From contig NZ_JAQSVC010000007.1 of assembly GCF_029603165.1 (NCBI RefSeq), positions 1 to 64,000 of the forward strand: a stretch of DNA of 64,000 nt, read 5' to 3'. The translations under genes were made by a program, and so were the position numbers. The notes under the pieces are model-generated. The model searched no databases. It saw nothing but the letters and a program-made list of their open reading frames with translations, and was not told the DNA's origin. The DNA is from Galbibacter pacificus. GTDB taxonomy: Bacteria > Bacteroidota > Bacteroidia > Flavobacteriales > Flavobacteriaceae. Position 1 is the stretch's first letter. Every line of letters begins with the position of its first letter. This document shows, piece by piece, positions 13,382 to 29,610 of the stretch.

Positions 13382-13416
13382 CTTTAAATCAACTTTAGAA
13401 TTCAAAAATACATTTG
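13382..13416 (+). promoter_or_regulatory. Island regulon promoter 1 (PAP2 no. 1)
   Basis: CTTTA at 13382 and CTTTAGA at 13393 are 11 bp apart. Nine bases after the second half-site comes a perfect -7 box, TACATTTG (13409-13416). No TTG lies at the -33 distance; the repeat occupies that place, as expected for an activator-dependent promoter. In the leader, GGTACCC occurs twice (13430 and 13454). Confidence 0.65.
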
Positions 13417-13474
13417 GCAAAACTAAACAGGTACCCGGCTAATTTAATAATGCGGTACCCATTATGCCATGCCC

Positions 13475-14260
13475 ATGAATGTACATTTCGTTAAAACAAA
13501 GAGGGGTGTAACTTTTTTAATCCTTTTATTGTCCTTTGCCTGCTTTGGCCAAAAAAGAGCAGACAAGGATTCCATAAATATTAAAGGCCCTACCAATATA
13601 CGGTTTCAGTATAAATCATTGATCGTGCCTTCCGTTTTGATAGGTTATGGCCTTTTGGCGACGGAGAGCCATACACTTATAGACTTCAACGGAGAAATCA
13701 AAGAAGAGGTAAATGAGCATATCGATGAGAAGTTTACCATGGACGATATCTCTCAATATGCTCCTGCCCTGGCGGTATATGGACTTAATATGGCGGATAT
13801 TAAGGGTAGGAATACCTTAAGGGACAGGACCGTTATATTGGGGACTGCTTATTTGATAATGGGATCGAGTGTTACCGGCTTAAAGGCCATTACCAGGGTA
13901 GAGCGGCCCGATGGTACTTCGAGGAACTCTTTTCCTTCGGGGCATACGGCTACGGCCTTTATGGGAGCGGAATTTTTATATCAAGAATATAAGGACGTTT
14001 CCGTTTGGTATGGTATGGCTGGGTATGCCGTGGCGGTAGGGACTGGCTTTTTTAGGATTTATAACGACAGGCATTGGTTCAGCGATGTTGTCGCTGGGGC
14101 CGGGATCGGGATTCTAAGTACCAAGATTGCATATTGGGTCCATCCGTTTATCAATAAAAAGTTATTTCCCAATCATGTGAAAGAACCGAAGTATGAGAAG
14201 GCATTTGCCTCTTTTTATAACGGCAGGGAAGCCGGGGTCGGTGCAGTTATCCGGTTTTGA
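13475..14260 (+). CDS. PAP2-family membrane-associated phosphatase, no. 1
   Basis: With the ATG at 13475 (MNVHFVKTKRG; an ATG two codons upstream is also possible) the protein has 261 residues and a signal-peptide-like start ending near CFGQ. The acid-phosphatase motifs are complete: K-A-I-T-R-V-E-R-P, PSGH (Pro154-His157), and later FFRIYNDRHWFSDVVAG carrying the Arg, His and Asp of motif 3. Family members remove phosphate from lipid substrates such as phosphatidate, undecaprenyl diphosphate or lipid A on the outer face of a membrane. Site 1 of the island regulon lies upstream. A second, different PAP2 gene with the same type of site is at 27725. Confidence 0.85.
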   Translation: MNVHFVKTKRGVTFLILLLSFACFGQKRADKDSINIKGPTNIRFQYKSLIVPSVLIGYGLLATESHTLIDFNGEIKEEVNEHIDEKFTMDDISQYAPALAVYGLNMADIKGRNTLRDRTVILGTAYLIMGSSVTGLKAITRVERPDGTSRNSFPSGHTATAFMGAEFLYQEYKDVSVWYGMAGYAVAVGTGFFRIYNDRHWFSDVVAGAGIGILSTKIAYWVHPFINKKLFPNHVKEPKYEKAFASFYNGREAGVGAVIRF

Positions 14261-14317
14261 TAATAGGAATGCCAACCATTTTCCAGGACCTGCCTATTAA
14301 AACCCCAATGGCAACAT

Positions 14318-14352
14318 CTTTAAAATAACTTTAGAATTGCTAAATATATTTG
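14318..14352 (+). promoter_or_regulatory. Island regulon promoter 2 (efflux/two-component operon)
   Basis: CTTTA at 14318 and CTTTAGA at 14329 (11-bp period), then nine bases, then a perfect TATATTTG at 14345-14352. The start codon follows 21 bases later. The operon it drives includes the response regulator gene, so the site implies autoregulation. Confidence 0.65.
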
Positions 14353-14373
14353 TTCATTCTATAATGTAAATTT

Positions 14374-15654
14374 GTGCGTACTATTCTTTTTTATAGCTTT
14401 CTGTTTTTGTTTGCTAGTTCTATAATGGGACAAGAGCAAAAGAACCTTAAATATTTTATTAATCAAGCGGAGGAGCATTTACCAAATGTAAAGGAAATTG
14501 AAAACCTCAAACGAATCGGGGAGTTGCAATATGAGATTATCAAGGCTCAACATAATGCATTTCAGGTGAATGCAACCACAGATGTGTTGGTAGCCCCTTA
14601 TTTTAATAATAATGGAAAGTTCATTGACATTACTACAAGCCCCTCTAATAGTGCTTATGGTTATGATGCAGGCATTACAAATGGAGGGCTTTATTCTGTA
14701 CAGGTTAATATTACCAAAAACTTATTTAATAAAAAATTGGTAGACGGACTTTTATTGCAAAGTAAACTAACCAATGAAGGGATATTGTTATCATCGAGTG
14801 CTATGGTGCATACTTTAATAAAAAATATTACTGATACATATATCCTAGCTTATCAACAACAATTAAAAATTGAATTTACCAAAGAGATTCTAGCGGCACT
14901 AACACAAAGACTTGATGTGGTTGAGATATTAGTGAAAAACGGAATTCTTTCCAATAGTGACTATTTATTGTTAAAACTTGACATAGATTCAAAAGGTATT
15001 GAACAGAAGCAAAACAGGATAGCTTTCAATACTACTATAATTCAACTATTTTCCTTGTGTGGAATTTCAGCTAAAAAAACAGAAAGTTTACTCCCTCCCA
15101 TCTTGGATTACAAAGAAGCTCCAAAAACTTTCTTTTACCTTAAAAAGTATCGAAATGATAGTTTACAACTCAAGTCTGATGAACAGGTTTTATTAAATCA
15201 GTATAAACCAAGTTTATCGCTTTATGGAAATACTGGAGTTAATGCAGTGGAGCTGTCGCATATTGATCATAGAATTGGAGCTAGCGTTGGCTTACATCTT
15301 GCCATTCCTATTTATGATGGGAAAAGGCGTAAATATATGTTGGATCAAAATAAATTAAAAAGAGAGAACCTAGAAGGGTATAGAAAAAATGATGCTGTTA
15401 AATTAAATAATGATTTAATGGCTTTGGATAATCAAGTGATTGCCTTGCAGAATCAAATTACCTTGCTTAACAAACAATTGGATCAGTATGCCCATATCCA
15501 AGAAATCTATAAAGAAAAGTTCGTGCAGGGACAGGTTTCTATTGTTGATTATTTAAATGTTATTCAGAGTTATAAATCGAACATGTATACCAAATTACAA
15601 GCACAAACAAATTTATGGCTTTTAAAAAGTCAGTTTAACTATACAAATTGGTAA
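14374..15654 (+). CDS. TolC-family outer-membrane efflux protein
   Basis: The 426-residue protein starts with GTG (the nearby ATG at 14363 is followed at once by a stop). Its signal peptide is MRTILFYSFLFLFASSIMGQ. The long alpha-helical repeats of OEP/TolC proteins follow (for example LKRIGELQYEIIKAQHNAFQ and ALQNQITLLNKQLDQY). The C-terminal helix FVQGQVSIVDYLNVIQSY matches the conserved G-x-x-x-x-x-D-(Y/L)-L signature of the family. It would form the outer-membrane channel for the adaptor and RND pump encoded directly downstream (two-base gap). It is first in the operon behind regulon promoter 2. Confidence 0.9.
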   Translation: MRTILFYSFLFLFASSIMGQEQKNLKYFINQAEEHLPNVKEIENLKRIGELQYEIIKAQHNAFQVNATTDVLVAPYFNNNGKFIDITTSPSNSAYGYDAGITNGGLYSVQVNITKNLFNKKLVDGLLLQSKLTNEGILLSSSAMVHTLIKNITDTYILAYQQQLKIEFTKEILAALTQRLDVVEILVKNGILSNSDYLLLKLDIDSKGIEQKQNRIAFNTTIIQLFSLCGISAKKTESLLPPILDYKEAPKTFFYLKKYRNDSLQLKSDEQVLLNQYKPSLSLYGNTGVNAVELSHIDHRIGASVGLHLAIPIYDGKRRKYMLDQNKLKRENLEGYRKNDAVKLNNDLMALDNQVIALQNQITLLNKQLDQYAHIQEIYKEKFVQGQVSIVDYLNVIQSYKSNMYTKLQAQTNLWLLKSQFNYTNW

Positions 15655-15656
15655 TT

Positions 15657-16580
15657 ATGAAGATAGATATCTCAAAATTATATTTGGTATCCATTTTTTT
15701 GATAATAGCGATTGGATGCAATACACCTCCTGTAGATCAAAATAGAACCAAGGCCTTTGTTAGGGTACAAACGGCAACGGTAAATAAAGGAACTATAGAT
15801 CAATATCGTTTATTTAATGGGGTTACCAAATATCAACGCAAGGAAGATATCCGAGCCAATGTTACGGGTTATATTTCTACAATCAATTTTGAAGTTGGAA
15901 ATTCTATTCGTAGAGGGCAGGTTTTATGCTATATAAGAACAAAAGAACAACAAGCCCTTGGAGCTGCAATAAGGATAGATAGTACACTGGCTAAACTTAC
16001 CATTCCCATGGCAATAAAGAGCGAGGCAACCGGTGTTGTTTCCGTTATAAATTATAATGAGAATAGTTTTGTTTCAGAAGGGGATATTATAGCCACCGTT
16101 ATACAACCTAATTCTTTGACAATACAAGTAAGCATTCCTTTTGATCAAAGTAAAGAAATTATAAAAGAAATGCCTTGTGAAATTGTTTTAAAAGATACCA
16201 CTATCAATGCTAAAATTAGTCAACAATTACCCATAATTGATCCTTTGACCCAAAACCAACAATTTTTAATTGAAATGCCAAAGATTATTTTACCAGAGAA
16301 CTTAAAAGTGCAGATTCGGATGTTGGAAAAAATTGCTGAGAATGCGATGGTACTTCCCCGATCTGTCATACAGACTAATGAACTACAAACTAAGTTTTGG
16401 GTTATGAAAGTTTTAAATGATTCTTTAGCTGTAAATATTAACGTAATACCACTAATGCAAAATGATTCTTTAGTTCAAGTAAGATCAACTTTGCTAGATT
16501 ATAAAGATACTATTATTACTAAGGGAGCATATCAATTACAAGATTCCACTGTTGTCCGCATTGAAAACCCTGCACCGTGA
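15657..16580 (+). CDS. RND efflux periplasmic adaptor lipoprotein
   Basis: With the ATG at 15657 the protein has 307 residues. A lipobox (IIAIGC) near residue 21 makes it a lipoprotein. A barrel-sandwich (biotinyl-like) half-motif VTGYISTINFEVGNSIRRGQ is followed by a second lipoyl half (ATGVVSVINYNENSFVSEGD). The intervening coiled-coil hairpin is almost absent, which makes this a short adaptor. A beta-barrel and a membrane-proximal domain follow. It would bridge the TolC-like channel and the pump. Its stop overlaps the GTG start of the pump by four bases. Confidence 0.85.
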   Translation: MKIDISKLYLVSIFLIIAIGCNTPPVDQNRTKAFVRVQTATVNKGTIDQYRLFNGVTKYQRKEDIRANVTGYISTINFEVGNSIRRGQVLCYIRTKEQQALGAAIRIDSTLAKLTIPMAIKSEATGVVSVINYNENSFVSEGDIIATVIQPNSLTIQVSIPFDQSKEIIKEMPCEIVLKDTTINAKISQQLPIIDPLTQNQQFLIEMPKIILPENLKVQIRMLEKIAENAMVLPRSVIQTNELQTKFWVMKVLNDSLAVNINVIPLMQNDSLVQVRSTLLDYKDTIITKGAYQLQDSTVVRIENPAP

Positions 16581-19500
16581 ATATAAATTTCGTAAAATAC
16601 AAATATCCCTTTTTGTTTTTAGCAATACTATTGCTAGCTGGTGGCTTTATTTCTTATCAAAAATTGCAAACGGGATTGTTTCCAGATATCACTTTTCCAA
16701 AGATTAAAGTGATTGCTGATGCTGGGCAACAACCAGTGGATAAAATGATGACTGCGGTTACCATTCCTCTAGAAAATGTATTGAGGCGAACAGAAGGATT
16801 ACAATACATTCGGAGTACCACCTCTCGAGGAAGTTGTGAGATTTCCGTATATCTAGATTGGGATACTGATATTAATACAGCCAAAGCCCAAATAGAATCC
16901 TATATTAATCAATCACAGGCAAATATTCTTCCGAACACCAATTTTTTAGTGGAAAAAATGAACCCTTCTATATTGCCAGTCATGGGGTATTCCTTAGAGG
17001 GAGATAATTACTCCTTAGTTGATTTAAAAAAAATAGCTAAATATCAAGTAAAACCATATTTATCTAGTACAGAAGGAGTTGCTGATGTTGTCGTGGTTGG
17101 AGGAAAGGAAAAAGAGTATCAGGTGGTATTGAATCCTATGAAGTTCAATGAGTTGGGGATAGGCATTTCTTCCGTTAAAGATGCTATTATCAATGCTAAT
17201 ATTCTTCAATCTAATGGGTATATAGAGGACCATAATCGTATGTATTTAACACTTATTGATAATGCCATAACTCAAAAATCCGATTTGGAAAACATCCCAA
17301 TAGTTAATACTTCTACTGGATTTATTCGCTTAAAAGATATTGCTACAATTGAGATTAGAGAGGTAAAAGAATATGTTAGAATATTAGCTAATGGGAAAAA
17401 CACACCCCTTATTGCCGTAGTAAAGCAACCTACAGCCAATTTAATGGAGGTTTCCGTTGAAATAGAGAAGAAAATTGATGAATTGGCAAACATCTTACCC
17501 AAAGGAGTTTATCTAAAACCTTACTATAAGCAAGCCGATTTTGTTGGCAAAAGCATCAGGAGCATTAAAGATGTTCTATGGATAGGACTTTTATTGGCGC
17601 TGTCTGTGGTAATTTTATTTTTAAGATCAGTTTCAGCTAGTTTATTGGTACTTCTTACCATTCCTATATCTTTATCACTTACTTTGATGGGTTTGGAGGT
17701 TTTGGGATATTCATTTAATATAATGACCCTTGGTGCCATTGCTGCTGCCATTGGACTTATGATTGATGATGTGGTAATCGTGATAGAACAGATACATAAA
17801 ATTCGGGAGGAATATCTTGAAGAATCTATAGGATTGATTGTCCATAAAAGTATTCACTATTTATTTCCAGCAATGATAGGGTCATCCCTTAGCACCTTGG
17901 TCATATTCATTCCATTTATTCTTATGACAGGAGTTGCTGGGGCATATTTCAAAGTAATGGCCTTTACTATGATTATAGCGCTCGTAGCATCCTTTGTTGT
18001 TTCATGGCTGATATTACCCGCTTTGGCAATTTTTTTATCTAATAGACCTCATAAAAAGAAAATAAATATACAAAGAACCAAATGGGTTCATTTTATTTTA
18101 AAGCGCCCGTTTCTTGGTGTGTCATTTGTTATATTATGTGTTTTAATTTTATTGGTTATTCCTTCTAGATTAACTACGGGTTTTTTACCTGATATGGATG
18201 AAGGGAGTATCGTGTTGGATTTCAATAGTCCACCCGGTACTACCTTAAAGGAAACCAACCGTATGCTTGCAGAAGTTAATCATATATTGAATAATCAAGA
18301 AGAAGTGGAAGCGTACTCTGCTCGTATAGGAACTCAAATGGGCTTTTTTATTACGGAACCAAACCGAGGGGATTACCTTATTAAATTAAAGGATTCTAAA
18401 AGTAAAAATACTACAGCAGTAGCTGATGAAATAAGACAAAAATTAGAGAAATCAGTTCCGCAGCTTACGGTAGATTTTGGTCAGGTTATTGGAGATATGT
18501 TGGGTGATTTGATGAGCTCTGTACAACCGATAGAAATTAAAGTATTTGGATCGGATGTGAAAATACTTCAAACACTTTCAAAACAAATTGCTGCTGAGAT
18601 GGAGCAAGTAGAAGGAACTGTGGATGTAAATGATGGAGTAATTGTTGCTGGCCCCACACTCTCGATAATACCAAATACCTATGCCCTTTCTCAATTGGGA
18701 CTTACGGTAAATGACTTACAAATACAATTGCAAACACAAATAGAGGGAATAGTGGTAAGTACAATATATGAAAACGAACAAGTAGTGCCGATTCGTTTGG
18801 TATATCCCAATGTTAAAAATTTAAGTATTGAAAATATCAGAACTACAAAAATAATTTTACCAAATGGATCACCAATAGCTATTGATAAAGTAGCTAACAT
18901 AACCTTAGAAAAAGGGGTGGCTGAGATTAATAGGGAAAATCAAAAATCAATGGGCGTGATTACTGCGCGATTAGATCAGCGTGATCTAGGGTCTGCCATA
19001 GTGGATATCAAGGATCGGATTGCCCAAAAAATCAGTATGCCACAAGGATATCATTTGGCTTATGGGGGTGCTTATATAGAGCAACAAAGAGCATTTCAGG
19101 AATTGTTATTAATTTTAATGAGTGCTATTCTATTAGTTTTTATGATTATTCTCTGTTTGTTTCGAAAACTTAGTATTGCTATTATGATACTCATTATAGG
19201 GGTGCTCGGAGTTGCAGGCTCTTTGATAAGCCTCTATATTACAGGAACTCCTTTAAATGTTGGTAGTTATACAGGGATTATTATGATTGTAGGGATTTTA
19301 GGGGAAAACAGCATTTTTACCTATTTGCAGTTTTTAGAAACAGATTCTAGGTGGACTGCTTTGAAAAGAATTGAATATGCTATTGCTGAAAGATTACGAC
19401 CAAAGTTAATGACAACTACAGCTGCAATGATGGCTTTGATTCCTTTGGCACTTGGCATCGGAACAGGAGCACAATTACATCAACCATTGGCAATTGCAGT

Positions 19501-19588
19501 TATTGGAGGATTATTATTTGCATTGCCACTTTTATTAGTGGTATTACCCACGATGCTTGAATATATTGAAAAAAAGCGAAATCAATAG
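16577..19588 (+). CDS. RND-family efflux transporter
   Basis: The 1003-residue inner-membrane proton-driven pump has the two-fold RND layout: TM1 near residue 10, a large periplasmic loop, TM2-6 (about 330-480), a second loop and TM8-12 (about 840-995). Asp397-Asp398 in GLMIDDVVIVIEQ of TM4 are the proton-relay carboxylates, in the style of hydrophobic/amphiphile pumps (GLxxDDA) rather than the metal-pump signature. At 1003 residues it is slightly shorter than AcrB. The GTG start overlaps the adaptor's stop. The response regulator gene follows after 42 bases. The substrate is unknown; a bile-salt, antimicrobial-peptide or lipid-like substrate would suit the context. Confidence 0.9.
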   Translation: MNINFVKYKYPFLFLAILLLAGGFISYQKLQTGLFPDITFPKIKVIADAGQQPVDKMMTAVTIPLENVLRRTEGLQYIRSTTSRGSCEISVYLDWDTDINTAKAQIESYINQSQANILPNTNFLVEKMNPSILPVMGYSLEGDNYSLVDLKKIAKYQVKPYLSSTEGVADVVVVGGKEKEYQVVLNPMKFNELGIGISSVKDAIINANILQSNGYIEDHNRMYLTLIDNAITQKSDLENIPIVNTSTGFIRLKDIATIEIREVKEYVRILANGKNTPLIAVVKQPTANLMEVSVEIEKKIDELANILPKGVYLKPYYKQADFVGKSIRSIKDVLWIGLLLALSVVILFLRSVSASLLVLLTIPISLSLTLMGLEVLGYSFNIMTLGAIAAAIGLMIDDVVIVIEQIHKIREEYLEESIGLIVHKSIHYLFPAMIGSSLSTLVIFIPFILMTGVAGAYFKVMAFTMIIALVASFVVSWLILPALAIFLSNRPHKKKINIQRTKWVHFILKRPFLGVSFVILCVLILLVIPSRLTTGFLPDMDEGSIVLDFNSPPGTTLKETNRMLAEVNHILNNQEEVEAYSARIGTQMGFFITEPNRGDYLIKLKDSKSKNTTAVADEIRQKLEKSVPQLTVDFGQVIGDMLGDLMSSVQPIEIKVFGSDVKILQTLSKQIAAEMEQVEGTVDVNDGVIVAGPTLSIIPNTYALSQLGLTVNDLQIQLQTQIEGIVVSTIYENEQVVPIRLVYPNVKNLSIENIRTTKIILPNGSPIAIDKVANITLEKGVAEINRENQKSMGVITARLDQRDLGSAIVDIKDRIAQKISMPQGYHLAYGGAYIEQQRAFQELLLILMSAILLVFMIILCLFRKLSIAIMILIIGVLGVAGSLISLYITGTPLNVGSYTGIIMIVGILGENSIFTYLQFLETDSRWTALKRIEYAIAERLRPKLMTTTAAMMALIPLALGIGTGAQLHQPLAIAVIGGLLFALPLLLVVLPTMLEYIEKKRNQ

Positions 19589-19630
19589 GCAGAGTATTAA
19601 TTTTTAAAATGAAAAACTAATTTTAAGGCT

Positions 19631-20308
19631 ATGAAAATATTAATTGCAGAGGACGAATTTTCTTTACAGCAGTCTATTGCTATTTACCTTGAAAAGGAAG
19701 GCAATGTATGTGAAGTGGCGTCCGATTTTAATGAAGCGTCTTATAAGATATCATTATATGATTATGATATTGTAATACTAGATCTCAATTTATTGACAGG
19801 GAGTGGAATTGATATCTTAAAGCAATTGAAGAAGAAGCAGGGTGCTAATACCGCGGTTATTATTATATCCGCAAACAATTCCTTGGATGATAAATTGGAA
19901 GGTTTGGATCTCGGAGCAGATGATTATTTAACCAAGCCATTTCATTTGGCAGAGCTTAATTCCCGGGTGAAGGCAATCTTAAGAAGGCAAATGTTTGGAG
20001 GAGGTGCTATTGTTGTTTTTAATGAGATTAAAATAGACACTGATGGACATGTGGTTACTGTGGGAGAAAAAGAAATTGTACTCACAAAAAAGGAATATGA
20101 TTTGTTACTTTTTTTTGTTACCAATAAAAATAGGGTACTATCCAAGGAAATTATAGCAGAACATCTTTGGGGAGATAATAGTGATTTAATTGATAATTTT
20201 GATTTTATTTATGTGCATGTCAATAATTTAAGGAAAAAACTCACGAAAGAAGGTGCAAAATATATTAAAACAGCTTATGGTAGTGGTTATAAATTCATAG
20301 AAGATTAA
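19631..20308 (+). CDS. OmpR/PhoB-family response regulator of the island
   Basis: The 225-residue protein has a receiver domain (1-120) with the acidic pocket EDE at 7-9, phosphoacceptor Asp51 (IVILDLNLL) and Lys102 (LTKPF). A winged-helix DNA-binding domain follows (130-225; VLTKKEYDLLLFFVTN, DNFDFIYVHVNNLRKKL, TAYGSGYKF). It is co-transcribed behind the pump and abuts the kinase gene with no gap. OmpR-type regulators bind direct repeats with about 11-bp period as head-to-tail dimers. The six CTTTA-N6-CTTTAGA sites in this island have exactly that period, so it is the best candidate for their binding protein. QseB, PmrA and CusR are the nearest styles by layout. Confidence 0.9.
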   Translation: MKILIAEDEFSLQQSIAIYLEKEGNVCEVASDFNEASYKISLYDYDIVILDLNLLTGSGIDILKQLKKKQGANTAVIIISANNSLDDKLEGLDLGADDYLTKPFHLAELNSRVKAILRRQMFGGGAIVVFNEIKIDTDGHVVTVGEKEIVLTKKEYDLLLFFVTNKNRVLSKEIIAEHLWGDNSDLIDNFDFIYVHVNNLRKKLTKEGAKYIKTAYGSGYKFIED

Positions 20309-21565
20309 ATGAAAAAAAGGAGTAAAAAGATCGGCCTGATACAAAAGACTTCCAGTATTTTTATAATAGTGAGCTTACTGTTAATGTCTTTGAGTTCAAT
20401 TGCGCTATATTTCTATGTACGAAATATTTTAGAGGCTGAAATTGAAGAGGAGTTGTATTCCACAACCGCTAGGATTGAAAGCATACTAGAGGCGGGTAAA
20501 AATCCATATTCATTGCCGCCAGTGGTAGAGGTAGGCACTTCCAAAGAACTCCTTCCTGATATATTGAAAGACACCTTGATCTATGATCCCTCACAAGATG
20601 AAATAGAACTATTTAGAGAGCTATCAAGTTTTAAGAGAATCAACAATATTAATTATAAAATATCAGTAAGGGATCTTGTAGTAGAATCTGAAAATATATT
20701 AATCGCCATAATCATTTCCTATTTATTAATCATTATAGTTGTTTTTGTAGTGTTGTATTACTTCAATAAAGTGGGGAATTCCTATTTATGGAAACCATTT
20801 TTTAATACGCTAGAACAAATAAAACAGTTTTCTCTTACCGCCAAGGAACCCATAGTATTGTCAAGTTCTAATATTAGAGAGTTCAGTGAACTGAACACCC
20901 AAGTAAAAATACTTACTGATAAAGTAAGGGCAGATTATAACAATCTAAAGCAATTTACAGAGGATGTTTCCCATGAATTACAAACTCCCTTGGCCATCAT
21001 GCAGGTTAAAATAGAGAGTGTTATAAATGACGCACCATTAAGCAACCAACAATATGACCAGTTGACATCCATTCAAAAAGATATTAAGCGAGTAACTCAA
21101 ATGAATAAGGGATTAACACTGCTTACAAAAATAGAGAACAATCAATTTATAAACCCAAAGCAAGTTTCATTGACTTCTATCGTAGAGGAGAATATTGCTA
21201 ATTTTAAAGAGATATTCCAACAAGATATTCAGTTCGTAAATGAAAATGAGCTTTTGGTGACTATGGATTACCATTTGGCAGAAATTCTTTGTAATAATTT
21301 AATTTCCAATGCTATAAAGCATCATATAGGTAGTGGGGATATTGTTATTGAAATTTCTAACAAGAGTTTATCTGTTAGTAATAAGGGGGAGAAACCAATT
21401 TTACATGTGGATCAGATATTCAATCGTTTTTATAAAGAAAATGAGAGTGTGAAATCTACTGGTTTGGGGCTTGCCATTGCAAAGAAAATTTGCGATATGT
21501 ATAATTTCAAACTTACATATTCATTCGACAAAGGAAGCCATATATTTTTGGTTCAATTTTCATGA
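20309..21565 (+). CDS. Sensor histidine kinase of the island
   Basis: The 418-residue protein has TM1 (about 14-37), a short extracytoplasmic sensor of about 95 residues, TM2 (about 130-155, AIIISYLLIIIVVFVVLYYF), and a HisKA domain with phosphoacceptor His222 in FTEDVSHELQTPLAI. The HATPase domain has an N box (LCNNLISNAIKHH) and a G box (STGLGLAIAK near 385). The last part of the ATP-binding domain is rather short. It starts on the base after the response regulator's stop codon, so the pair is cognate. The small sensor loop resembles envelope-stress and cation/peptide sensors, but no known ligand motif is seen. Confidence 0.9.
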   Translation: MKKRSKKIGLIQKTSSIFIIVSLLLMSLSSIALYFYVRNILEAEIEEELYSTTARIESILEAGKNPYSLPPVVEVGTSKELLPDILKDTLIYDPSQDEIELFRELSSFKRINNINYKISVRDLVVESENILIAIIISYLLIIIVVFVVLYYFNKVGNSYLWKPFFNTLEQIKQFSLTAKEPIVLSSSNIREFSELNTQVKILTDKVRADYNNLKQFTEDVSHELQTPLAIMQVKIESVINDAPLSNQQYDQLTSIQKDIKRVTQMNKGLTLLTKIENNQFINPKQVSLTSIVEENIANFKEIFQQDIQFVNENELLVTMDYHLAEILCNNLISNAIKHHIGSGDIVIEISNKSLSVSNKGEKPILHVDQIFNRFYKENESVKSTGLGLAIAKKICDMYNFKLTYSFDKGSHIFLVQFS

Positions 21566-21610
21566 GTAAATTACTAGCTGTACCCCACTAATTAATAATT
21601 TAATTTTCCA

Positions 21611-21645
21611 CTTTAAACCATCTTTAGATTTACTTTTTAGTTTTA
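21611..21645 (+). promoter_or_regulatory. Island regulon promoter 3 (barrel receptor)
   Basis: CTTTA at 21611 and CTTTAGA at 21622 (11-bp period), nine bases, then TAGTTTTA at 21638-21645, which fits TAnnTTTG except the last base. CTTTTTAG at 21633 extends the 11-bp periodicity. The ATG at 21663 follows 17 bases later. It separates the kinase gene from the receptor gene, giving the receptor its own promoter. Confidence 0.6.
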
Positions 21646-21662
21646 TTCAAAATTCGAATATA

Positions 21663-24086
21663 ATGGATAAATTAAAGGTACGATTATTGTCTTCCTTTTT
21701 GGCAATATTTGGTGTTTGCGAAGCTCAGGAAAAAATAACAGTTTCCGGAAAAGTTAAGGATAGTCAGACCAATGAAGTTTTACCTTATACATCCGTAACA
21801 GTAAATAAAGAAACTTCTGGAGCGTTTGTAATAGGAACAATAACAGATGAAGCGGGTGATTTTATGCTAGAAGGATTACCTTTGGGCAATTATAGTATAA
21901 ACATTTCTTTTGTAGGTTATCAGCAATCGCAACGGAAGATTTATGCAAGTGGGATAAATACTACTTTTACTCTAGGTGTAATTCCACTGAATCCAACATC
22001 CGAAGCTTTGGAAGCAGTGGAAGTATCGGTAAAAAGAGAAGTGACTAATGCTGCATTAAGTAAAAAAAGTTTTTCACTTACCGATAATATAGCTAATTCC
22101 GGTGGCTCGGTATTGGAAGCTATGAAATCAATGCCTGGTGTTACTTTTGATCAAGAAGGAAAAGTGTTGTTGAGAGGAAGCGATAAGGTCACTGTGCTTA
22201 TAGATGGAAAACAGTCCAGTTTAACTGGTTTTGGAAACCAAAAAGGATTGGGAAACATTCCAGTTTCAAATATTGATAGGATTGAGATTATTAATAATCC
22301 TTCGGCTAAGTATGATGCGAATGGTTTAGCAGGTATTATTAATATTATTTATAAAGAAGAGCAAGAAAGAGGTGTTAATGGAACCATAGGGCTTTCATCT
22401 GGAATAGGAGCATTCTCTATACGTAAGGGGGATCTCCCAACCGATCTTGGTTCTTATTATATGAATCCAAAATTAATCCCAAGTATAGATTTTAATTACA
22501 GAACTAAAAAGTTTAATTACTTTGTTCAGTCAGAAATTATCATTCAAGAAGCACTTCCCAATAATGAGTTTACAACTAGATTGTATAGTGACGGAAGTGA
22601 AATTGCATCCCAAGTTCCAGAAAATAGAAAACAGTTTAGGGCCATCTTAAAAGGAGGCGTTGATTGGAATTTAGATGAGAATAATAGGTTTACTTTTTCA
22701 GCGATGTACGATAGAGAAAAGCATATCGATACCTCTCAAGTCGCTTTTATTAACTTAGCTTCCAGTCAAAGAGAGCGATATTATAACTGGAAGGAAGAAG
22801 AGATAACAAGTAATATTAATGTGGTTGCAGATTATGAACATTCATTTGAAGAACCTGGGCAAACCTTTAATGCAAACCTACAATATACAAGAGGTTTGGA
22901 GGATGAAAGATATTTTTTGAACGATAGTTCTTCCATTCGCATAGGGAGGGATGTTACACATATTAAAGCGGTTGAACACACATTAGGTTTGTCAGCAAAT
23001 TATGCACAGGCATTGGCAGCAGGGAAGTTGGAGGTTGGTACCAAAGTTAGAGTTCGCCGTCTCCCTGTTGATTATTCTGTTGAAAGAGGAGATAATTCAA
23101 TTATTTACGAAGGACTTGGAGATTATTCCGATTGGGGAGAGAATCTCTTTGCAGGATATGCAAACTTTGTCTATGAAAGAGCACATTTTGAAATAGAAGC
23201 AGGTTTAAGAGCGGAGTATACCCAGGTTTTTTATACCCTTGATCCTGCAAATATTTACTACGATTCCAATGATGATTATGACTATTTTAAATTTTTTCCA
23301 AGTATACGATATACTCAAAAACTCAACCAAAATAATAATTTGTCGTTTTTTTATAATCGTCGAATTGATCGTCCTGGAGAAGCAGAACTCAGAATTTTTC
23401 CAAAATATGATGATCCTGAACTCTTAAAGGTAGGAAATCCCTATTTACGTCCTCAATACACAGAAGCCATAGAATTGGCACATAAATTTTCATGGAATAC
23501 GGGTTCTTTGTTTTCCGCTTTATACCATAAAAAGATAACCGATGAATATCGAAGGATCTATAGTGTTGATAATTCAAATCCAACGTATGACATTATCAAT
23601 AGAATATATCAAAATACAGGAAGGACATTGTCAAGCGGCATAGAGATACTATTTAATCAGGATATTTCTTCTTATTGGGAATTGGGCCTGAGTGCAAATT
23701 TTTTCAATAATAAGATAGCAGCCTATACTGGAACTGTCTTGTTTCCCTATGAAAGACCTTTTTATATAGAAGAGTCTAATGCAAATGCAACTATTTTAAA
23801 ACTAACCAATGAATTTCGGTTACCTTGGGAATTGCAATTTCAGGTGCTAGGGCTTTATTATTCACCAAAGAATATACCACAAGGAAAAGAGCTTTCTCGT
23901 TCTTCAATAGATATTGGTGTGAAGAAATTAGTTTGGAATAAAAAAGGAGAGATTGCTTTTTCAATGAGTGATTTATTTAATAATTATGGAATTCGACAAG
24001 AAATAAATGAAAGTGATTTTACTGCTTTATATCAGAATTATTACGAGACACAAATAGCGAGAGTCTCTTTCAAATATAAGTTTTAG
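21663..24086 (+). CDS. TonB-type outer-membrane receptor (OMP beta-barrel family 3)
   Basis: The 807-residue protein has a signal peptide (to about residue 20), a CarboxypepD-regulatory-like domain (about 23-100; ITVSGKVKDSQTNEVLPYTS), and a plug domain (about 135-225). The plug reads LEAMKSMPGVTFDQEGKVLL and VLIDGKQSS, then IDRIEIINNPSAKYDANG. A long C-terminal barrel follows, with RPGEAELR..P in mid-barrel. The layout matches the outer-membrane beta-barrel family (PF14905) rather than nutrient-type SusC. Such barrels often sit beside two-component systems in this phylum, with unknown cargo. It follows the kinase by 97 bases and carries its own regulon site, so it probably takes part in the same stress response. 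Confidence 0.85.
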   Translation: MDKLKVRLLSSFLAIFGVCEAQEKITVSGKVKDSQTNEVLPYTSVTVNKETSGAFVIGTITDEAGDFMLEGLPLGNYSINISFVGYQQSQRKIYASGINTTFTLGVIPLNPTSEALEAVEVSVKREVTNAALSKKSFSLTDNIANSGGSVLEAMKSMPGVTFDQEGKVLLRGSDKVTVLIDGKQSSLTGFGNQKGLGNIPVSNIDRIEIINNPSAKYDANGLAGIINIIYKEEQERGVNGTIGLSSGIGAFSIRKGDLPTDLGSYYMNPKLIPSIDFNYRTKKFNYFVQSEIIIQEALPNNEFTTRLYSDGSEIASQVPENRKQFRAILKGGVDWNLDENNRFTFSAMYDREKHIDTSQVAFINLASSQRERYYNWKEEEITSNINVVADYEHSFEEPGQTFNANLQYTRGLEDERYFLNDSSSIRIGRDVTHIKAVEHTLGLSANYAQALAAGKLEVGTKVRVRRLPVDYSVERGDNSIIYEGLGDYSDWGENLFAGYANFVYERAHFEIEAGLRAEYTQVFYTLDPANIYYDSNDDYDYFKFFPSIRYTQKLNQNNNLSFFYNRRIDRPGEAELRIFPKYDDPELLKVGNPYLRPQYTEAIELAHKFSWNTGSLFSALYHKKITDEYRRIYSVDNSNPTYDIINRIYQNTGRTLSSGIEILFNQDISSYWELGLSANFFNNKIAAYTGTVLFPYERPFYIEESNANATILKLTNEFRLPWELQFQVLGLYYSPKNIPQGKELSRSSIDIGVKKLVWNKKGEIAFSMSDLFNNYGIRQEINESDFTALYQNYYETQIARVSFKYKF

Positions 24087-24089
24087 AAG

Positions 24090-24124
24090 CTTAAACATTT
24101 CTTTAGAATTGGTGATTAACTTTA
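24090..24124 (+). promoter_or_regulatory. Island regulon promoter 4 (PepSY-like gene)
   Basis: CTTTAGA at 24101 is preceded 11 bp upstream by a degenerate half-site CTTAA (24090). Nine bases after CTTTAGA comes TAACTTTA (24117-24124), a TAnnTTTG box with a changed last base. The ATG is at 24153. The first half-site is the weakest of the six sites, but the spacing to the -7 box is identical. Confidence 0.5.
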
Positions 24125-24152
24125 GTGTTATTAACTAAAAAAATAATACAAA

Positions 24153-24605
24153 ATGAAAGTATTAAATTTATTGTTTATGGGGGTCTTAATTACAGGGCTC
24201 AGTGCCTTTGGATATAAAAAAGAGGTTCCAGAAAAAGTGGAAGAAGCTTTTAATAAAAAATTCCCAGAAGCTAAGGGTGTACATTGGGATCAGGAATCTG
24301 ATCATGAATGGGAAGCAGAATTTAAATGGGACGGTCATCGCTATTCAGCTAATTTTATGGACGATGGAACCTGGAAGGAAACTGAACATGAAATTAAGTT
24401 TAAAGAATTACCAGAGAGGGTTCGAATTTCCTTATTCCAGAAGTTCCAGGATTATAAAATCAAAGAGCAGGAAATTTCGGAAACATCTAATGGAACTCTG
24501 TATGAATGTGAAATAAAAAAAGGAAAATCAAAACTAGAAGTGGCCTTTGATGAAAAAGGAGAACTTATGAAAAAAGAAGTGTTAACGGAAGAAGAAGAAG
24601 ATTAG
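24153..24605 (+). CDS. Periplasmic PepSY-like (DUF2874-type) protein
   Basis: The 150-residue protein has a signal peptide (to about residue 19, ..ITGLSAFG). Two tandem PepSY-like repeats follow: KVEEAFNKKFPEAKGVHWDQ with WEAEFKWDGHRYSANFMDDG, then RISLFQKFQDYKIKEQEI with YECEIKKGKSKLEVAFDEKG. The tail is very acidic (EEEED). Small secreted proteins of this type are common beside two-component systems in Bacteroidota and are thought to bind or modulate envelope components; no activity is proven. It has its own regulon site, and a strong terminator follows at 24631-24668. Confidence 0.8.
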   Translation: MKVLNLLFMGVLITGLSAFGYKKEVPEKVEEAFNKKFPEAKGVHWDQESDHEWEAEFKWDGHRYSANFMDDGTWKETEHEIKFKELPERVRISLFQKFQDYKIKEQEISETSNGTLYECEIKKGKSKLEVAFDEKGELMKKEVLTEEEED

Positions 24606-24630
24606 GTTTTGTTTTTTTTCGATTTAGTAT

Positions 24631-24668
24631 AAAGGGATTTGAATTTGTTTTCAAATCCCCTTTTTTTT
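24631..24668 (+). terminator. Strong rho-independent terminator
   Basis: GGGATTTGAA (24634-24643) pairs with TTCAAATCCC around a short loop, preceded by an A-run and followed by eight T. It ends the PepSY-like transcript, so the phosphotransferase gene downstream depends on its own promoter. Confidence 0.85.
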
Positions 24669-24686
24669 AAATCAATGCAATCGCAT

Positions 24687-24721
24687 CTTTAATTTTCCTT
24701 TAGATTCTGATGATAATTTTA
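24687..24721 (+). promoter_or_regulatory. Island regulon promoter 5 (phosphotransferase / lipid kinase)
   Basis: CTTTA at 24687 and CTTTAGA at 24698 (11-bp period), nine bases, then TAATTTTA (24714-24721). The ATG at 24750 is 28 bases on. The site begins 18 bases past a strong terminator, so it is the only visible source of transcription for the two overlapping genes downstream. Confidence 0.6.
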
Positions 24722-24749
24722 CCACTTGAATTTTGATAGAGTTATTTAT

Positions 24750-26732
24750 ATGTGGTACAAGTTATCCCCTAAGCGTTTTGAATTATTGAAGGTTTTTGTT
24801 CTTTTCTTTGTAGGCCTTTCATCTGTTGTAAGATTAATCTTTTTATTGTGGAACCTAAGTGAGGTTGACGTCGATTTCTTTGATATACTACGAATTTTTA
24901 TGACAGGTCTATTTTTTGACCTGGGAACAATTTCGTTTTTTACCATCCCTTATCTGCTGTATTTAATGATAATGCCTAATAAATGGGTAGGGAGCTTATT
25001 TGACCGAATAGCTACCTATACTGGTTTTACCATAGGAATATTAGTGCTCTATTTTTCTTTTTTTGCAGAAATTACATTCTGGGATGAATTCCATAGAAGA
25101 TTTAACTTTATCGCGGTAGATTACTTAATCTATACCTATGAAGTAGTTCGAAATATAAATGAGTCCTATCCCTTGCCAATTTTAATTTCTAGTATCTTGT
25201 TGTTGACTGTTGGTACCATATATTTAATATATAAGTGCAATAGTTTTGAACATGTTTTTAAAGCACAAATATCATTTAAAACGAAAGTATTATTCTCCTT
25301 CCCTTGGGTTGTAATAGCCATTTGCTTTACCATGTTTGTCTCCAATGAAGCTGCTGATTGGTCAGGAAATCGATATAATAATGAACTTTCAAAAGCCGGG
25401 ATTTATTCCTTTTTTGCCGCCTTTAGAAATAATGAGCTTTCGTATACAGAATTTTACAAAACCCTTACCAAAAATGAATCCTATGCTTTAGTAAGTAAAC
25501 AATACGAAGCTTCTGGGGATTTAATTGATCGTGAAAAAAATCCTATATATAGAAATATTCCACCTCATGATACACTTCAACGTGGAATAACCCCGAACGT
25601 TATATTTATTTGTGTAGAGAGTTTAAGTGCCAAATTCTTAGGAGTATTTGGCAATGAAAAGGGGCTTACTCCGAATTTAGATAAACTTTCTAAAGAAGGT
25701 GTTTTATTTTCAAACCTATATGCAACCGGGACTAGAACAGTACGAGGAATGGAAGCTATAACCTTGTCGATACCACCAACACCCGGACGAAGTATTGTCA
25801 AAAGAGAACACAATACAGGTATGTTTACCATCGGTGAAGTATTTAAAAATAAAGGATATTCACGTAATTTTTATTATGGAGGGGATGGTTATTTCGATAA
25901 TATGAATGCCTATTTCAGTGGAAATGATTTTAATATTATAGATAGGGGAAGAGAGTTTTTGATTGGTGATCAAATAAAAACCATTAGAACTAATATTAAT
26001 GATAACGAAGTAAGCTTTGAAAATGCTTGGGGAGTTTGCGATGAAGATATTTTTAATAAAGTTATACAGCAGGCAGATATACAATCTGTTAGCGGAAAAC
26101 CTTTTTTTGATTTTATTATGACCACTTCTAATCACAAACCATATACATATCCAGAAGGTAAAATAGACATTCCATCAGGAAGTGGTAGGGATGGTGCAGT
26201 TAAATATACAGATTACGCAATTGGAAAATTCATTGAAAAAGCTAAATCGAAACCATGGTTTAATAATACCGTTTTTGTAGTCATGAGCGATCACTGTGCT
26301 AGTAGTGCTGGGCGATGGGAACTGGATGTTAAAAACTACCATATTCCTGCCATTATCTATAATTTGCCTAACCAAAGTTCTAAAAAAATAGATAGACTCT
26401 GTTCCCAAATCGATATCTTCCCAACATTATTCGGGTATTTTAATTGGAAATATAACTCAAACTTCTTTGGGCAGGATATAACAAAGAAATCTTCAAATAC
26501 AGCAAGAGCATTTATTGGGAATTATAGAAAATTAGGCCTTTTAAAAGGGAATAATCTTATGATTCTAGGAGATCAAAAGACTGCTAATTTTTATAAATGG
26601 GATAATATCACAAATGGTCTTACAATACAAAGCGTATCCAATGACTATTTAAATCAGACGATTTCTTTTTATCAAACTGCTGATGATTTGTATACAAGTG
26701 GTAAGCTTACTTTAAAAAGTTTAAAAGAATGA
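24750..26732 (+). CDS. MdoB/LtaS-like membrane phosphotransferase (LTA synthase family)
   Basis: With the ATG at 24750 (MWYKLSPKRF; an upstream TTG is less likely) the protein has 660 residues. Five TM helices occupy about 15-210, followed by an extracytoplasmic sulfatase-fold domain. A metal-binding Glu lies near 288 in FICVESLSAKFLG. The expected threonine nucleophile is near 330 in ATGTRTVRGMEA. VMSDHCASS carries the distal Asp-His metal ligands. Family members move a phosphoglycerol or phosphoethanolamine headgroup from a phospholipid to an envelope acceptor and release diacylglycerol. The acceptor is not predictable here. Its last codon overlaps a diacylglycerol-kinase-like gene by four bases, which fits recycling of that by-product. 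It is regulon-controlled (site 5). Confidence 0.85.
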   Translation: MWYKLSPKRFELLKVFVLFFVGLSSVVRLIFLLWNLSEVDVDFFDILRIFMTGLFFDLGTISFFTIPYLLYLMIMPNKWVGSLFDRIATYTGFTIGILVLYFSFFAEITFWDEFHRRFNFIAVDYLIYTYEVVRNINESYPLPILISSILLLTVGTIYLIYKCNSFEHVFKAQISFKTKVLFSFPWVVIAICFTMFVSNEAADWSGNRYNNELSKAGIYSFFAAFRNNELSYTEFYKTLTKNESYALVSKQYEASGDLIDREKNPIYRNIPPHDTLQRGITPNVIFICVESLSAKFLGVFGNEKGLTPNLDKLSKEGVLFSNLYATGTRTVRGMEAITLSIPPTPGRSIVKREHNTGMFTIGEVFKNKGYSRNFYYGGDGYFDNMNAYFSGNDFNIIDRGREFLIGDQIKTIRTNINDNEVSFENAWGVCDEDIFNKVIQQADIQSVSGKPFFDFIMTTSNHKPYTYPEGKIDIPSGSGRDGAVKYTDYAIGKFIEKAKSKPWFNNTVFVVMSDHCASSAGRWELDVKNYHIPAIIYNLPNQSSKKIDRLCSQIDIFPTLFGYFNWKYNSNFFGQDITKKSSNTARAFIGNYRKLGLLKGNNLMILGDQKTANFYKWDNITNGLTIQSVSNDYLNQTISFYQTADDLYTSGKLTLKSLKE

Positions 26733-27610
26733 AAAATATTCATTTCATTGTAAATCCAATAGCTGGAAAAGGGAATAAAAATATTGATCAAAAGCTTTTG
26801 GATGGCTATTTTCCAAAAGCGCTCTATATATTAGTAATTAAGTATACAAAATATAAAGGTGAGGCTGTTGTGCTAACTCAAGAATCTGTTAGTCAAGGAG
26901 CAGATATTATTGTTGCATGCGGTGGTGATGGAACCATAAATGAAGTAGCTTCTGTTTTAGTGAATTCTCAATGTATCTTAGGAATAATACCAATTGGTTC
27001 AGGTAATGGACTAGCTTCTCATTTGAATATTCCTAAAAATATTGAAAAAGCCCTCATGATCATTAAGCATCAAGTTACCAACAAAATTGATGTGGGTATC
27101 TGTAATGGTAATTATTTTTTTAGTAATACAGGTTTTGGGTTTGATGCCAAGGTAATACGAAACTATGAAGGCTTTAATGGACGTACCCTTAAGAGTTATT
27201 TAAAAGCTTGTGCTGTTACTTTTTTTAATGATAAAAAGGATGATTCTCTGGTTGTAACCATTAACGGGACAAAAATGTATAAAGACCCATTTTTAATTTT
27301 TGCTTCCAACTCCAATGAACTAGGGTATAATTTTAGTCTTACCCCAAAGGCATCATTAAAAGATGGCCTTTTGGATGTGCTTATAATCCCAAAAATGCAA
27401 AAACTACAGTTGGTATGGTTTGGGATAATGTTGATTTTCAAAAGACATCTAAGTATAAAGGGAGTGGTTAGTTATCAAACAAATAAGCTGGACATAATAA
27501 GAAATAAAGGGAAGTACCTTGAATCTCAAATGGATGGAGAATATAAAATTTTAGAAGAAATAAAGGTATCCATCGAATTATTAAAAGACTCAATTATAGT
27601 GATTAATTAA
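26729..27610 (+). CDS. Diacylglycerol-kinase-like lipid kinase (DagK/YegS/LCB5 fold)
   Basis: The 293-residue cytosolic lipid kinase opens with IHFIVNPIAGKGN, the first nucleotide-binding motif of the DAGK catalytic domain. The signature CGGDGTINEVASVL follows at about 71-84, then PIGSGNGLASHL (about 90-101). The C-terminal beta-sandwich (about 120-290) includes FSNTGFGFDAKV and KDGLLDVLIIPK. It phosphorylates a lipid hydroxyl, most simply diacylglycerol to phosphatidate, using ATP. The ATGA overlap with the phosphotransferase suggests translational coupling: the transferase would make diacylglycerol and this enzyme would return it to phospholipid synthesis. That pairing is known in Gram-positive LtaS/DgkB biology. 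Sphingoid-base or other lipid substrates remain possible. Confidence 0.85.
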   Translation: MKNIHFIVNPIAGKGNKNIDQKLLDGYFPKALYILVIKYTKYKGEAVVLTQESVSQGADIIVACGGDGTINEVASVLVNSQCILGIIPIGSGNGLASHLNIPKNIEKALMIIKHQVTNKIDVGICNGNYFFSNTGFGFDAKVIRNYEGFNGRTLKSYLKACAVTFFNDKKDDSLVVTINGTKMYKDPFLIFASNSNELGYNFSLTPKASLKDGLLDVLIIPKMQKLQLVWFGIMLIFKRHLSIKGVVSYQTNKLDIIRNKGKYLESQMDGEYKILEEIKVSIELLKDSIIVIN

Positions 27611-27617
27611 GTGTATT

Positions 27618-27660
27618 CTTTAAAACTTTAGAATTTCTTTAGAATCGTGATTTACTTTTG
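27618..27660 (+). promoter_or_regulatory. Island regulon promoter 6 (PAP2 no. 2)
   Basis: Three half-sites: CTTTA at 27618, CTTTA at 27626 and CTTTAGA at 27637. The last two are 11 bp apart. Nine bases follow, then a perfect TACTTTTG at 27653-27660. The ATG at 27725 is 64 bases on. It is the richest of the six sites. Confidence 0.65.
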
Positions 27661-27724
27661 GATACTTAATCCTAAAATAAGCATGCCTATTATATTAAAA
27701 TTACTTAACTGATAGCATTACCTC

Positions 27725-28309
27725 ATGTATTATCTTTTTAATTCTACTACCAAAATCTTCTATTTTAAAATTCAGAAGTGTTTTATATTTTTTATCTATT
27801 TTGCTTGCTTTTGGAATTTGAGATTGTATTCACAAGAAAAAGCGATTGAAACTTCAGGAGATATTCTTTTGTATGCGATGCCAGCTATTTCATTGGGATC
27901 AACCCTTATCATAGGTGATAAACAAGGGTCTTGGCAGTTCTTAAAAGGTTTAGCCGTAAATGAAGCTATGACTTTTGGATTAAAACTAGCTATTACTAAA
28001 CCACGACCCAATGAAGCTAATAATAATTCTTTTCCATCAGGGCATACCTCCACGACATTTCAGAGTGCGGCTTTTATTCAAAAAAGATATGGTTGGAAGT
28101 ATGGAATACCCGCATATACTTTAGCTGCGTTCACAGGATATAGTAGAATCTATGCAGATCAGCATGATATATTAGATGTCTTGGTGGGAGCGGCAATAGG
28201 TGTTGGTAGTAGTTATTTATTTACGAATGAATATCGAAAGGAGCGTATGGAAATTACATTTACATCCAATCGAGATAATATATTACTGGGATTTAATTAT
28301 AAGTTCTGA
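27725..28309 (+). CDS. PAP2-family phosphatase, no. 2
   Basis: The 194-residue protein has an unusually long N-terminus before a hydrophobic stretch (FIFFIYFACFWNL) and a YSQ cleavage-like site (about 37). The acid-phosphatase motifs are KLAITKPRP, PSGH (Pro104-His107), and YSRIYADQHDILDVLVG with the Arg, His and Asp of motif 3. It is shorter than PAP2 no. 1 and not a close duplicate. Its motif 1 has K-x6-RP like lipid phosphatases. It would dephosphorylate a lipid phosphate at the membrane surface. Regulon site 6 lies upstream. It is the last intact cargo gene before the IS cluster. Confidence 0.85.
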   Translation: MYYLFNSTTKIFYFKIQKCFIFFIYFACFWNLRLYSQEKAIETSGDILLYAMPAISLGSTLIIGDKQGSWQFLKGLAVNEAMTFGLKLAITKPRPNEANNNSFPSGHTSTTFQSAAFIQKRYGWKYGIPAYTLAAFTGYSRIYADQHDILDVLVGAAIGVGSSYLFTNEYRKERMEITFTSNRDNILLGFNYKF

Positions 28310-28403: not shown

Positions 28404-29303
28404 TTAGGTACTGGTCATAACTAGAGAATCTGGGCTATTTTCATTGATTTCAATGTACTCATTGGGTGACATGTCACCCAATGAGCTGTGTGGTCTAAAC
28501 CCGTTATAGTCTTCCCTCCAAATATCGAACTTTTCTTGAGCATCTTCCCAAGAGAAGAACCAGTTTGTATTTAAACATTCATCTCTGAAAGATCCATTGA
28601 AGCTTTCTATAAATGGATTATCAGTAGGTTTTCCGGGTCTTGAGAAGTATAATTCAACATTGTTTTCATAAGCCCATTTATCCAATACTTTACTGATAAA
28701 TTCACTTCTATTATCTACTTTTATGCGTTTAGAATAAACTCTTGCACTAGTAACTAAATTATCCATCACCCCAACAACATCACTTCCTTTAAGGGATTTT
28801 CCTGCATATATAGCTAAACATTTACGACTATAATTATCTACTACAGTTAAGGCCCTGAAACGGCTTCCGTCGTAGAGTTGATCTGTCACAAAATCCATAC
28901 TCCAGCACTCATGTAAACTAGAGGCATTACCAAGAGCAGGCTGTCTATGGGCTGCACACCGACTTCTTTTAGGTCTCTTAGATCTGAGGTTTAAACCTTC
29001 TTCGCAATACACTCTATAAACGCGTTTATGATTATCCATAAAGCCTTCCCGGCGAAGCAAGATATAGATCCTCCAAAACCCATAGCGTACCCGTGTTGCT
29101 GCTATTTCTTTCATTCTCATACGCAGCAATTCATCTCCACGTTCTTTGGGTGTATAATAAAAAACGCTTTTGTGCAGCAATATTAGGCGTACACAACGGT
29201 TGATGGAAATATTATATTCCATACGAATATTGCTGACCATCTCCCGTTTTCGAGACGGCCTCAGAACTTTTTTTAAGTACGTCCTGAAGAATCTGCTTGT
29301 CAA
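28404..29303 (-). CDS. IS3-family transposase OrfB (DDE domain)
   Basis: The 299-residue frame carries the helix-turn-helix-21 region (RVRYGFWRIYILLRREGF) and the rve integrase core. Its catalytic residues are Asp in CWSMDFVTD, Asp in KVDNRSEF (normally DNGPEF; the G-P pair is changed to R-S) and Glu in NPFIESFNGSFRDECLN. It is normally made as an OrfAB fusion by -1 frameshifting. The first residues overlap orfA and are not a natural start. The substitution next to the second catalytic Asp may lower activity, but the triad is intact. The sequence resembles the IS407/IS2 side of the family; subgroup is uncertain. Confidence 0.85.
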   Translation of the reverse strand: MTSRFFRTYLKKVLRPSRKREMVSNIRMEYNISINRCVRLILLHKSVFYYTPKERGDELLRMRMKEIAATRVRYGFWRIYILLRREGFMDNHKRVYRVYCEEGLNLRSKRPKRSRCAAHRQPALGNASSLHECWSMDFVTDQLYDGSRFRALTVVDNYSRKCLAIYAGKSLKGSDVVGVMDNLVTSARVYSKRIKVDNRSEFISKVLDKWAYENNVELYFSRPGKPTDNPFIESFNGSFRDECLNTNWFFSWEDAQEKFDIWREDYNGFRPHSSLGDMSPNEYIEINENSPDSLVMTST

Positions 29304-29526
29304 GACTTAAATCAGCTACAAGCTTTTTAAGCTGCGCATTCTCCTCCTCCAAGTTTTTAAGCCTTCTCAGTTCAGAGACACCCAGACCACCGTATTTTTT
29401 CTTCCAATTGTAAAAGGTAGCCTCGCTGATTCCCATCTTGCGACAGACCTCAGAAAGACGTGTTCCAGTCTCAACCTGTTTTATCGCAAATACAATCTGC
29501 GACTCGGTATATTTTGATCGTTTCAT
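29212..29526 (-). CDS. IS3-family transposase OrfA with a -1 slippery site
   Basis: Starting at the ATG at 29524-29526 (MKRSKYTESQIVFAIKQ) it encodes 104 residues. A helix-turn-helix (SEVCRKMGISEATFYNWKKK) is followed by a leucine-zipper-like coiled coil (LRRLKNLEEENAQLKKLVAD). A run of seven A followed by G (minus strand, 29274-29267) near the end of the frame is an A-AAA-AAG slippery heptamer, placed where orfB's frame is entered. That supports programmed -1 frameshifting to make the OrfAB transposase. Confidence 0.85.
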   Translation of the reverse strand: MKRSKYTESQIVFAIKQVETGTRLSEVCRKMGISEATFYNWKKKYGGLGVSELRRLKNLEEENAQLKKLVADLSLDKQILQDVLKKSSEAVSKTGDGQQYSYGI

Positions 29527-29610
29527 AAGCAAATAATTTATTTAAAGTTAAATATTTATTTGCCAGAAATACTCTAGTTTTTATCAGTCTGATTTAATGG
29601 GAGGAGGTCA

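Follow-up and report, generated by a model that had tools for sequence, protein, structure and literature searches.

Described systems closest to the locus

PmrA/BasR of Salmonella and Klebsiella is an OmpR/PhoB-family regulator that reads an 11-bp-period direct repeat of CTTAA-like half-sites, and envelope-lipid modification genes are among its targets. The PmrA box is CTTAAG-N5-XTTAAT (PMC3973317). A PmrA dimer lies head-to-tail on the two tandem half-sites, with the sigma-4/-35 position on half-1, and contacts the bases through N188, N196, and R210 (PMC4660055). At PhoB promoters, tandem 11-bp repeats replace the upstream promoter element, and sigma region 4 is contacted (PMC4660055). Modification of lipid A by LpxE and EptA gives polymyxin resistance in Capnocytophaga canimorsus (PMC4730577), and the report on an OmpR-type system of Riemerella does not mention PepSY, efflux, or PAP2 targets (PMC5399024). 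The main text of the Flavobacterium psychrophilum transcription-start atlas gives the flavobacterial sigma-A -7 element as TAnnTTTG, at -12 to -5, and none of the six sigma motifs presented there is of the kind described below (PMC9723704).

The locus analyzed here lies in the window, i.e., the whole 64-kb stretch of Galbibacter pacificus DNA under study. It contains the following genes:

13469..14260, + strand: PAP2 phosphatase no. 1 (Pfam PAP2, 6.6e-17; weak LpxE match, far under the cut-off)
14374..15654, + strand: TolC-type outer-membrane efflux protein (Pfam OEP)
15648..16580, + strand: periplasmic adaptor of the HlyD/RND_mfp type (profile matches)
16577..19588, + strand: RND transporter permease (Pfam ACR_tran, 7.5e-199)
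19631..20308, + strand: OmpR/PhoB-family response regulator, proposed to bind the operator (Pfam Response_reg and Trans_reg_C; alignment, co-occurrence, and tree)
20309..21565, + strand: PorY-family sensor histidine kinase (NCBIfam NF052314, 409 bits; cut-off, 350)
21663..24086, + strand: TonB-dependent-type beta-barrel with a carboxypeptidase-regulatory domain (Pfam OMP_b-brl_3, 9e-74; Plug)
24153..24605, + strand: PepSY-like protein, predicted to be periplasmic (Pfam PF11396, 1.4e-11)
24750..26732, + strand: sulfatase-fold membrane phosphotransferase, MdoB/LtaS-like (Pfam Sulfatase)
26729..27610, + strand: YegS/DgkB-type lipid kinase (Pfam DAGK_cat; TIGR00147, 122 bits, cut-off 119)
27725..28309, + strand: PAP2 phosphatase no. 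2 (Pfam PAP2, 3.2e-13; LpxE, 2.2e-11, under the cut-off)

The locus shares with PmrA/BasR the regulator family, the 11-bp-period repeat, and envelope-lipid genes among the targets. BasR also ranks among the best full-length matches of the window regulator in the PDB, and N196 of PmrA aligns with its invariant N199. However, the half-site here is CTTTAGA rather than CTTAAG, N188 and R210 of PmrA align with D191 and Y216, the kinase belongs to the PorY family, no EptA-type gene is present, and the promoter has a Bacteroidota-type -7 box. The likeness to the PmrA box proposed in the sequence-only reading was thus borne out for the operator layout and the general DNA-binding fold, but not for the base contacts, one in three of which is kept, or for the transferase, which is of the MdoB/LtaS type and not EptA. 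Assignment of the regulator as a PmrA/BasR orthologue was rejected on these contacts and on its equivalog score (160.6 bits, cut-off 330). A PhoB equivalog model was its top NCBIfam match, but PhoB orthology was also rejected (161.7 versus 296 and 158.1 versus 270 bits); the half-site differs from that of PhoB, and the targets include no phosphate-uptake genes. By these comparisons, the regulator is one that would work like PmrA or PhoB while being neither.

The kinase, which scores above the PorY family cut-off, links the locus to PorXY of Porphyromonas gingivalis. PorX does not belong to the OmpR type, whereas the partner encoded next to the kinase here does, and the targets include no type IX secretion genes. 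The combination of a PAP2-type phosphatase with a sulfatase-fold transferase recalls LpxE-EptA of C. canimorsus, a related bacterium; the transferase here, however, resembles phosphoglycerol transferase I/LtaS and matches no EptA model. The earlier reading knew of no description of the motif, and our full-text literature search, whose coverage left out most subscription papers, found none.

Six promoters with one operator-promoter geometry

A pattern match over the 64-kb window showed that six sites have CTTWA-N6-CTTTAGA-N9-TAnnTTT in common:

Site 1, 13382..13416, + strand: operator CTTTAAATCAACTTTAGA, N9, -7 box TACATTTG; 5' of PAP2 no. 1
Site 2, 14318..14352, + strand: operator CTTTAAAATAACTTTAGA, N9, -7 box TATATTTG; 5' of the TolC-adaptor-RND-regulator-kinase operon
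Site 3, 21611..21645, + strand: operator CTTTAAACCATCTTTAGA, N9, -7 box TAGTTTTA; 5' of the TonB-dependent-type barrel gene
Site 4, 24090..24124, + strand: operator CTTAAACATTTCTTTAGA, N9, -7 box TAACTTTA; 5' of the PepSY-like gene
Site 5, 24687..24721, + strand: operator CTTTAATTTTCCTTTAGA, N9, -7 box TAATTTTA; 5' of the phosphotransferase/lipid kinase pair
Site 6, 27626..27660, + strand: operator CTTTAGAATTTCTTTAGA, N9, -7 box TACTTTTG; 5' of PAP2 no. 2

All six CTTTA-N6-CTTTAGA sites of the sequence-only reading were recovered, and the gap of nine bases that it described between CTTTAGA and TAnnTTT(G/A) was exact at each of them. Its statement that a -33 TTG is absent also held, as no site has a TTG 17 to 23 bp 5' of the TA of its -7 box; the operator box occupies that position. 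The first half CTTAA at 24090 was read correctly, but it is not degenerate, as the same variant is an ordinary one found in 14 of 47 sites. Counting from a -7 box at -12 to -5, the operator spans -39 to -22 at the six sites, and the same register predicts leaders of 13 to 60 nt for the six units, with transcription expected to begin near 13421, 14357, 21650, 24129, 24726, and 27665.

The full operator and -7 pattern had exactly six matches in the 4.04-Mb genome, all inside this segment and all on the forward, gene-bearing strand (none on the reverse). As a chance control we used the same pattern read backwards, which gave no match on either strand of the whole genome and six matches across 199 genomes. 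At this rate of about 0.03 per genome, six in one genome would arise by chance with a probability of about 1e-12. Random recurrence genome-wide, which the earlier reading had named as the finding that would speak against it, was therefore not seen; that observation was correct, and the evidence now exceeds what was claimed. When two mismatches were allowed, the full pattern had nine further matches in the same genome against 12 for the control, which is background. The 18-mer operator alone, at up to two mismatches, was not significantly enriched in the window (20 matches versus 14.2 expected), so the strength of the signal resides in the full geometry.

Conservation of geometry and targets in relatives

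We collected 24 stretches from genomes of the regulator clade, in which a search that did not require a -7 box returned 58 boxes. TAnnTTT stood at a spacing of 9 after 41 of these, the sole strongly recurrent spacer. The half-site period was 11 bp in 46 sites, and in nine cases of the box count a third CTTWA lay another 11 bp upstream. Sequence logos confined conservation to the two half-sites, the three bases 3' of the box, and the -7 box, with almost no information in the flanks. Several positions left free in the search were conserved as well, namely, R at position 6 (after CTTWA), W-T-Y just 3' of the box, and the closing R of the -7 box.

The regulator-clade islands contain the same genes in varying order and number. 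Despite this rearrangement, and in other genera, 42 of 47 sites lay directly 5' of target orthologues or the regulator gene: PepSY-like, 11; transferase, 8; TolC-RND operon, 8 (in 7 genomes); barrel, 6; PAP2, 5; and regulator, 4. The regulator gene follows the box directly in G144, G199, and, as a second copy, G201, and in G200 the orthologous PAP2a gene next to the regulator bears the same site. In G119 and G144, some sites (a few) were away from known targets. The PepSY-like promoters often carried three tandem 11-bp half-sites (5 of 11; L067 at 4639 and 4001, L066 at 15142, L076 at 5177, and L185 at 10821), unlike most other targets. Two further peculiarities of the relatives' islands were a pump-operon TolC gene reduced to a 151-codon C-terminal fragment in congener G201 (L183, 8722-9177) and extra envelope-type genes encoding a patatin-like phospholipase and DUF347 proteins (L066, 9691-10452; L064, 12564-13310; L074, 12732-13505).

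Transferase orthologues in six regulator-bearing genomes had a box with 0 to 1 mismatches, whereas all 12 transferase copies in genomes that lack the regulator clade had none (best match, 6 to 9 mismatches), although some of these are 57 to 60% identical to the window protein. Boxless transferases of regulator-bearing genomes lay behind other genes (G133 and G037) or were unlinked copies (G117 and the second copy in G189). The pump operon of G125 retains its box 1.27 Mb from the regulator, which points to a regulator acting in trans. With up to two mismatches allowed, the description of the island as a self-contained regulon holds for its own genome; it does not extend to G125.

Co-occurrence of the regulator and the motif

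Co-occurrence was measured in 199 genomes of the family, with regulator orthologues defined by at least 66% identity. The exact motif was present in 12 of 14 genomes with such a regulator and in 5 of 185 others (Fisher P = 9.3e-14; 9.4e-13 leaving out the window's genome). Both exceptions (G138 and G120) carry near-consensus boxes of the same geometry in the regulator neighborhood, with 1 to 3 mismatches, as do genomes G146 and G025, whose regulator relatives are 59 to 61% identical. Three genomes (G066, G076, and G182) have the motif and no regulator relative at E <= 1e-50; their sites lie inside open reading frames and are therefore consistent with chance matches. Twenty sampled genomes having only regulators below 59% identity contained no exact motif. 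A refined pattern scanned over 396 genomes of the order matched in eight, two of them in another family with single matches each, and the control matched in none.

Co-occurrence, linkage, and conserved targets strongly support the earlier claim that the island's OmpR-type regulator would act on the 11-bp direct-repeat operator, as do the box before the regulator gene in relatives and its absence from orthologous targets in regulator-less genomes. Common descent or the transfer of entire islands could explain part of the association, though the order and spacing of the targets are reshuffled.

The regulator and its paralogue

The regulator has a receiver domain (PF00072, 9.5e-25) followed by a winged helix (Trans_reg_C, PF00486, 6.8e-20). 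All residues for phosphorylation are present (E7, D8, D51, S80, and K102); D51, S80, and K102 were invariant in the alignment and E7 and D8 nearly so. In the regulator tree, the main clade had support of 100/99, and the kinases of relatives passed NF052314 in all six cases tested.

The same genome encodes a 53% identical paralogue on a long tree branch (L091, 8199-8903; C11:805201-805872). Its receiver acidic pair is changed, with A and Y in place of E7 and D8; it is possibly a phosphorylation-independent relative. Another regulator-kinase pair on L091 has two CTTAAGATTnGCTTAAGA-type 11-bp direct repeats beside it, near 12041 and 15588 on the minus strand. These repeats are closer to the classical PmrA box and may serve this second system as its operator.

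Proposed circuit and competing explanations

We are confident that the segment forms the regulon of a single two-component system, which would activate six promoters through the tandem box. The PorY-family membrane kinase would sense an envelope signal and phosphorylate the regulator. The phosphorylated dimer would then bind head-to-tail on the 11-bp-spaced half-sites CTTWARA and CTTTAGA, at about -39 to -22. There it would replace the -33 element and, in the manner of PhoB at PhoB promoters, hold sigma-A RNA polymerase at a fixed distance on the TAnnTTT(R) -7 box. The units activated would be the RND pump operon, the barrel, the PepSY-like protein, the phosphotransferase/lipid kinase pair, and the two PAP2 phosphatases; since the pump operon contains the regulator and kinase genes, positive autoregulation would follow. 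We infer activation, with this positive autoregulation, as the best model from the PhoB/PmrA-type arrangement at the -35 position and the lack of a -33 TTG, and it leaves repression as the main rival. The sequence-only reading had likewise favored autoregulated activation as the simplest model; the box before the regulator gene in relatives adds to its case for autoregulation, which could be of either sign.

Repression would mean that the regulator binds the same boxes and blocks sigma region 4 until a change in phosphorylation releases the promoter. Some OmpR-family regulators activate and also repress, and the operator overlaps the place of the -33 element. We nevertheless consider repression unlikely: a -33 TTG able to support activator-independent transcription is missing from all six promoters, and a rigid 9-bp spacer with a fixed period over many genera is typical of activators that touch polymerase, whereas the position of repressor sites normally varies.

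The motif could also have a different reader, be it some other regulator or an alternative sigma factor, to which the linked OmpR-type regulator would be incidental. OmpR-type regulators are indeed numerous in these genomes (36 first-look candidates in the window's own genome, which also holds the 53% paralogue). Yet the motif specifically follows this clade of regulators and is missing, in its exact form, from the 20 genomes with more distant regulators. An 11-bp direct repeat 9 bp from a -7 box is unlike a -35/-10 pair, and the -7 box is that of ordinary sigma-A, from which motifs SM4 to SM6 in the main text of the F. psychrophilum atlas differ (PMC9723704). A reader other than the linked regulator is thus very improbable.

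An origin of the matches by chance, or as a dispersed repeat in AT-rich DNA, as the unenriched 18-mer might suggest, is hardly credible given six full-pattern matches against none for the control, the expectation of some 0.03 per genome, the retention of the site before the same genes in other genera, and the unconserved flanks, which show that the box is not a repeat element.

Activation of the six promoters by the linked regulator very probably constitutes a genuine, so far undescribed circuit that controls remodeling of the cell surface. Its output, judged from family resemblance, would probably be envelope-lipid remodeling and export under membrane stress. The lipid steps would be phosphoglycerol-type headgroup transfer, recycling of diacylglycerol, and lipid phosphatase activity.

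The phosphotransferase most likely starts at ATG 24750 and not at TTG 24726, as indicated by comparison with orthologues. Its best NCBIfam models were those for phosphoglycerol transferase I and LtaS, all under cut-off (MdoB, 4e-19), and its best PDB match was 3lxq (VP1736; 1.6e-73), LtaS structures being weaker. An EptA/MCR lipid A phosphoethanolamine transferase was considered and dropped, as no EptA model in NCBIfam matched. A phosphatidylglycerol-using transferase and a diacylglycerol kinase would be a logical pair of neighbors, because headgroup transfer, going by LtaS and MdoB biology, should release diacylglycerol.

Distribution and possible mobility of the island

The island has a GC content of 33.1%, against 37 to 38% in its flanks. 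A close regulator orthologue is absent from three of seven congeners, and the neighbors of the island differ among congeners. Directly 3' of PAP2 no. 2 are two integrase-core (rve/HTH_21) transposase genes (28404-30354), the second shortened, which suggest insertion-sequence activity at the island edge. Low GC, patchy presence, differing neighbors, and downstream transposases together suggest that the island is mobile.

Tentatively, and at somewhat less than even chance, the locus may represent an undescribed, family-wide Flavobacteriaceae-type system that is PmrAB-like but built from other parts. In it, a PorY-family kinase and an OmpR-type regulator substituting for the -33 element would control phosphoglycerol-type surface modification and a dedicated RND pump, and the regulon would travel as reshuffled islands. 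Bacteroidota promoters differ from those of Escherichia coli, and to our knowledge few operators of two-component regulators have been defined in Bacteroidota. The clean operator-to--7 geometry, kept in many genera, could serve as a bench system for the way an OmpR/PhoB-type activator engages a Bacteroidota sigma factor. A further prediction from this geometry is a coherent, uncharacterized set of envelope-lipid genes with their regulator in about 7 to 9% of the family's sampled genera.

Within the island, PAP2 no. 1 (13382-14260) stands apart with a GC content of 42.9%, compared to the 33.1% of the rest (14300-28309). Its origin is therefore probably different, despite the same box.
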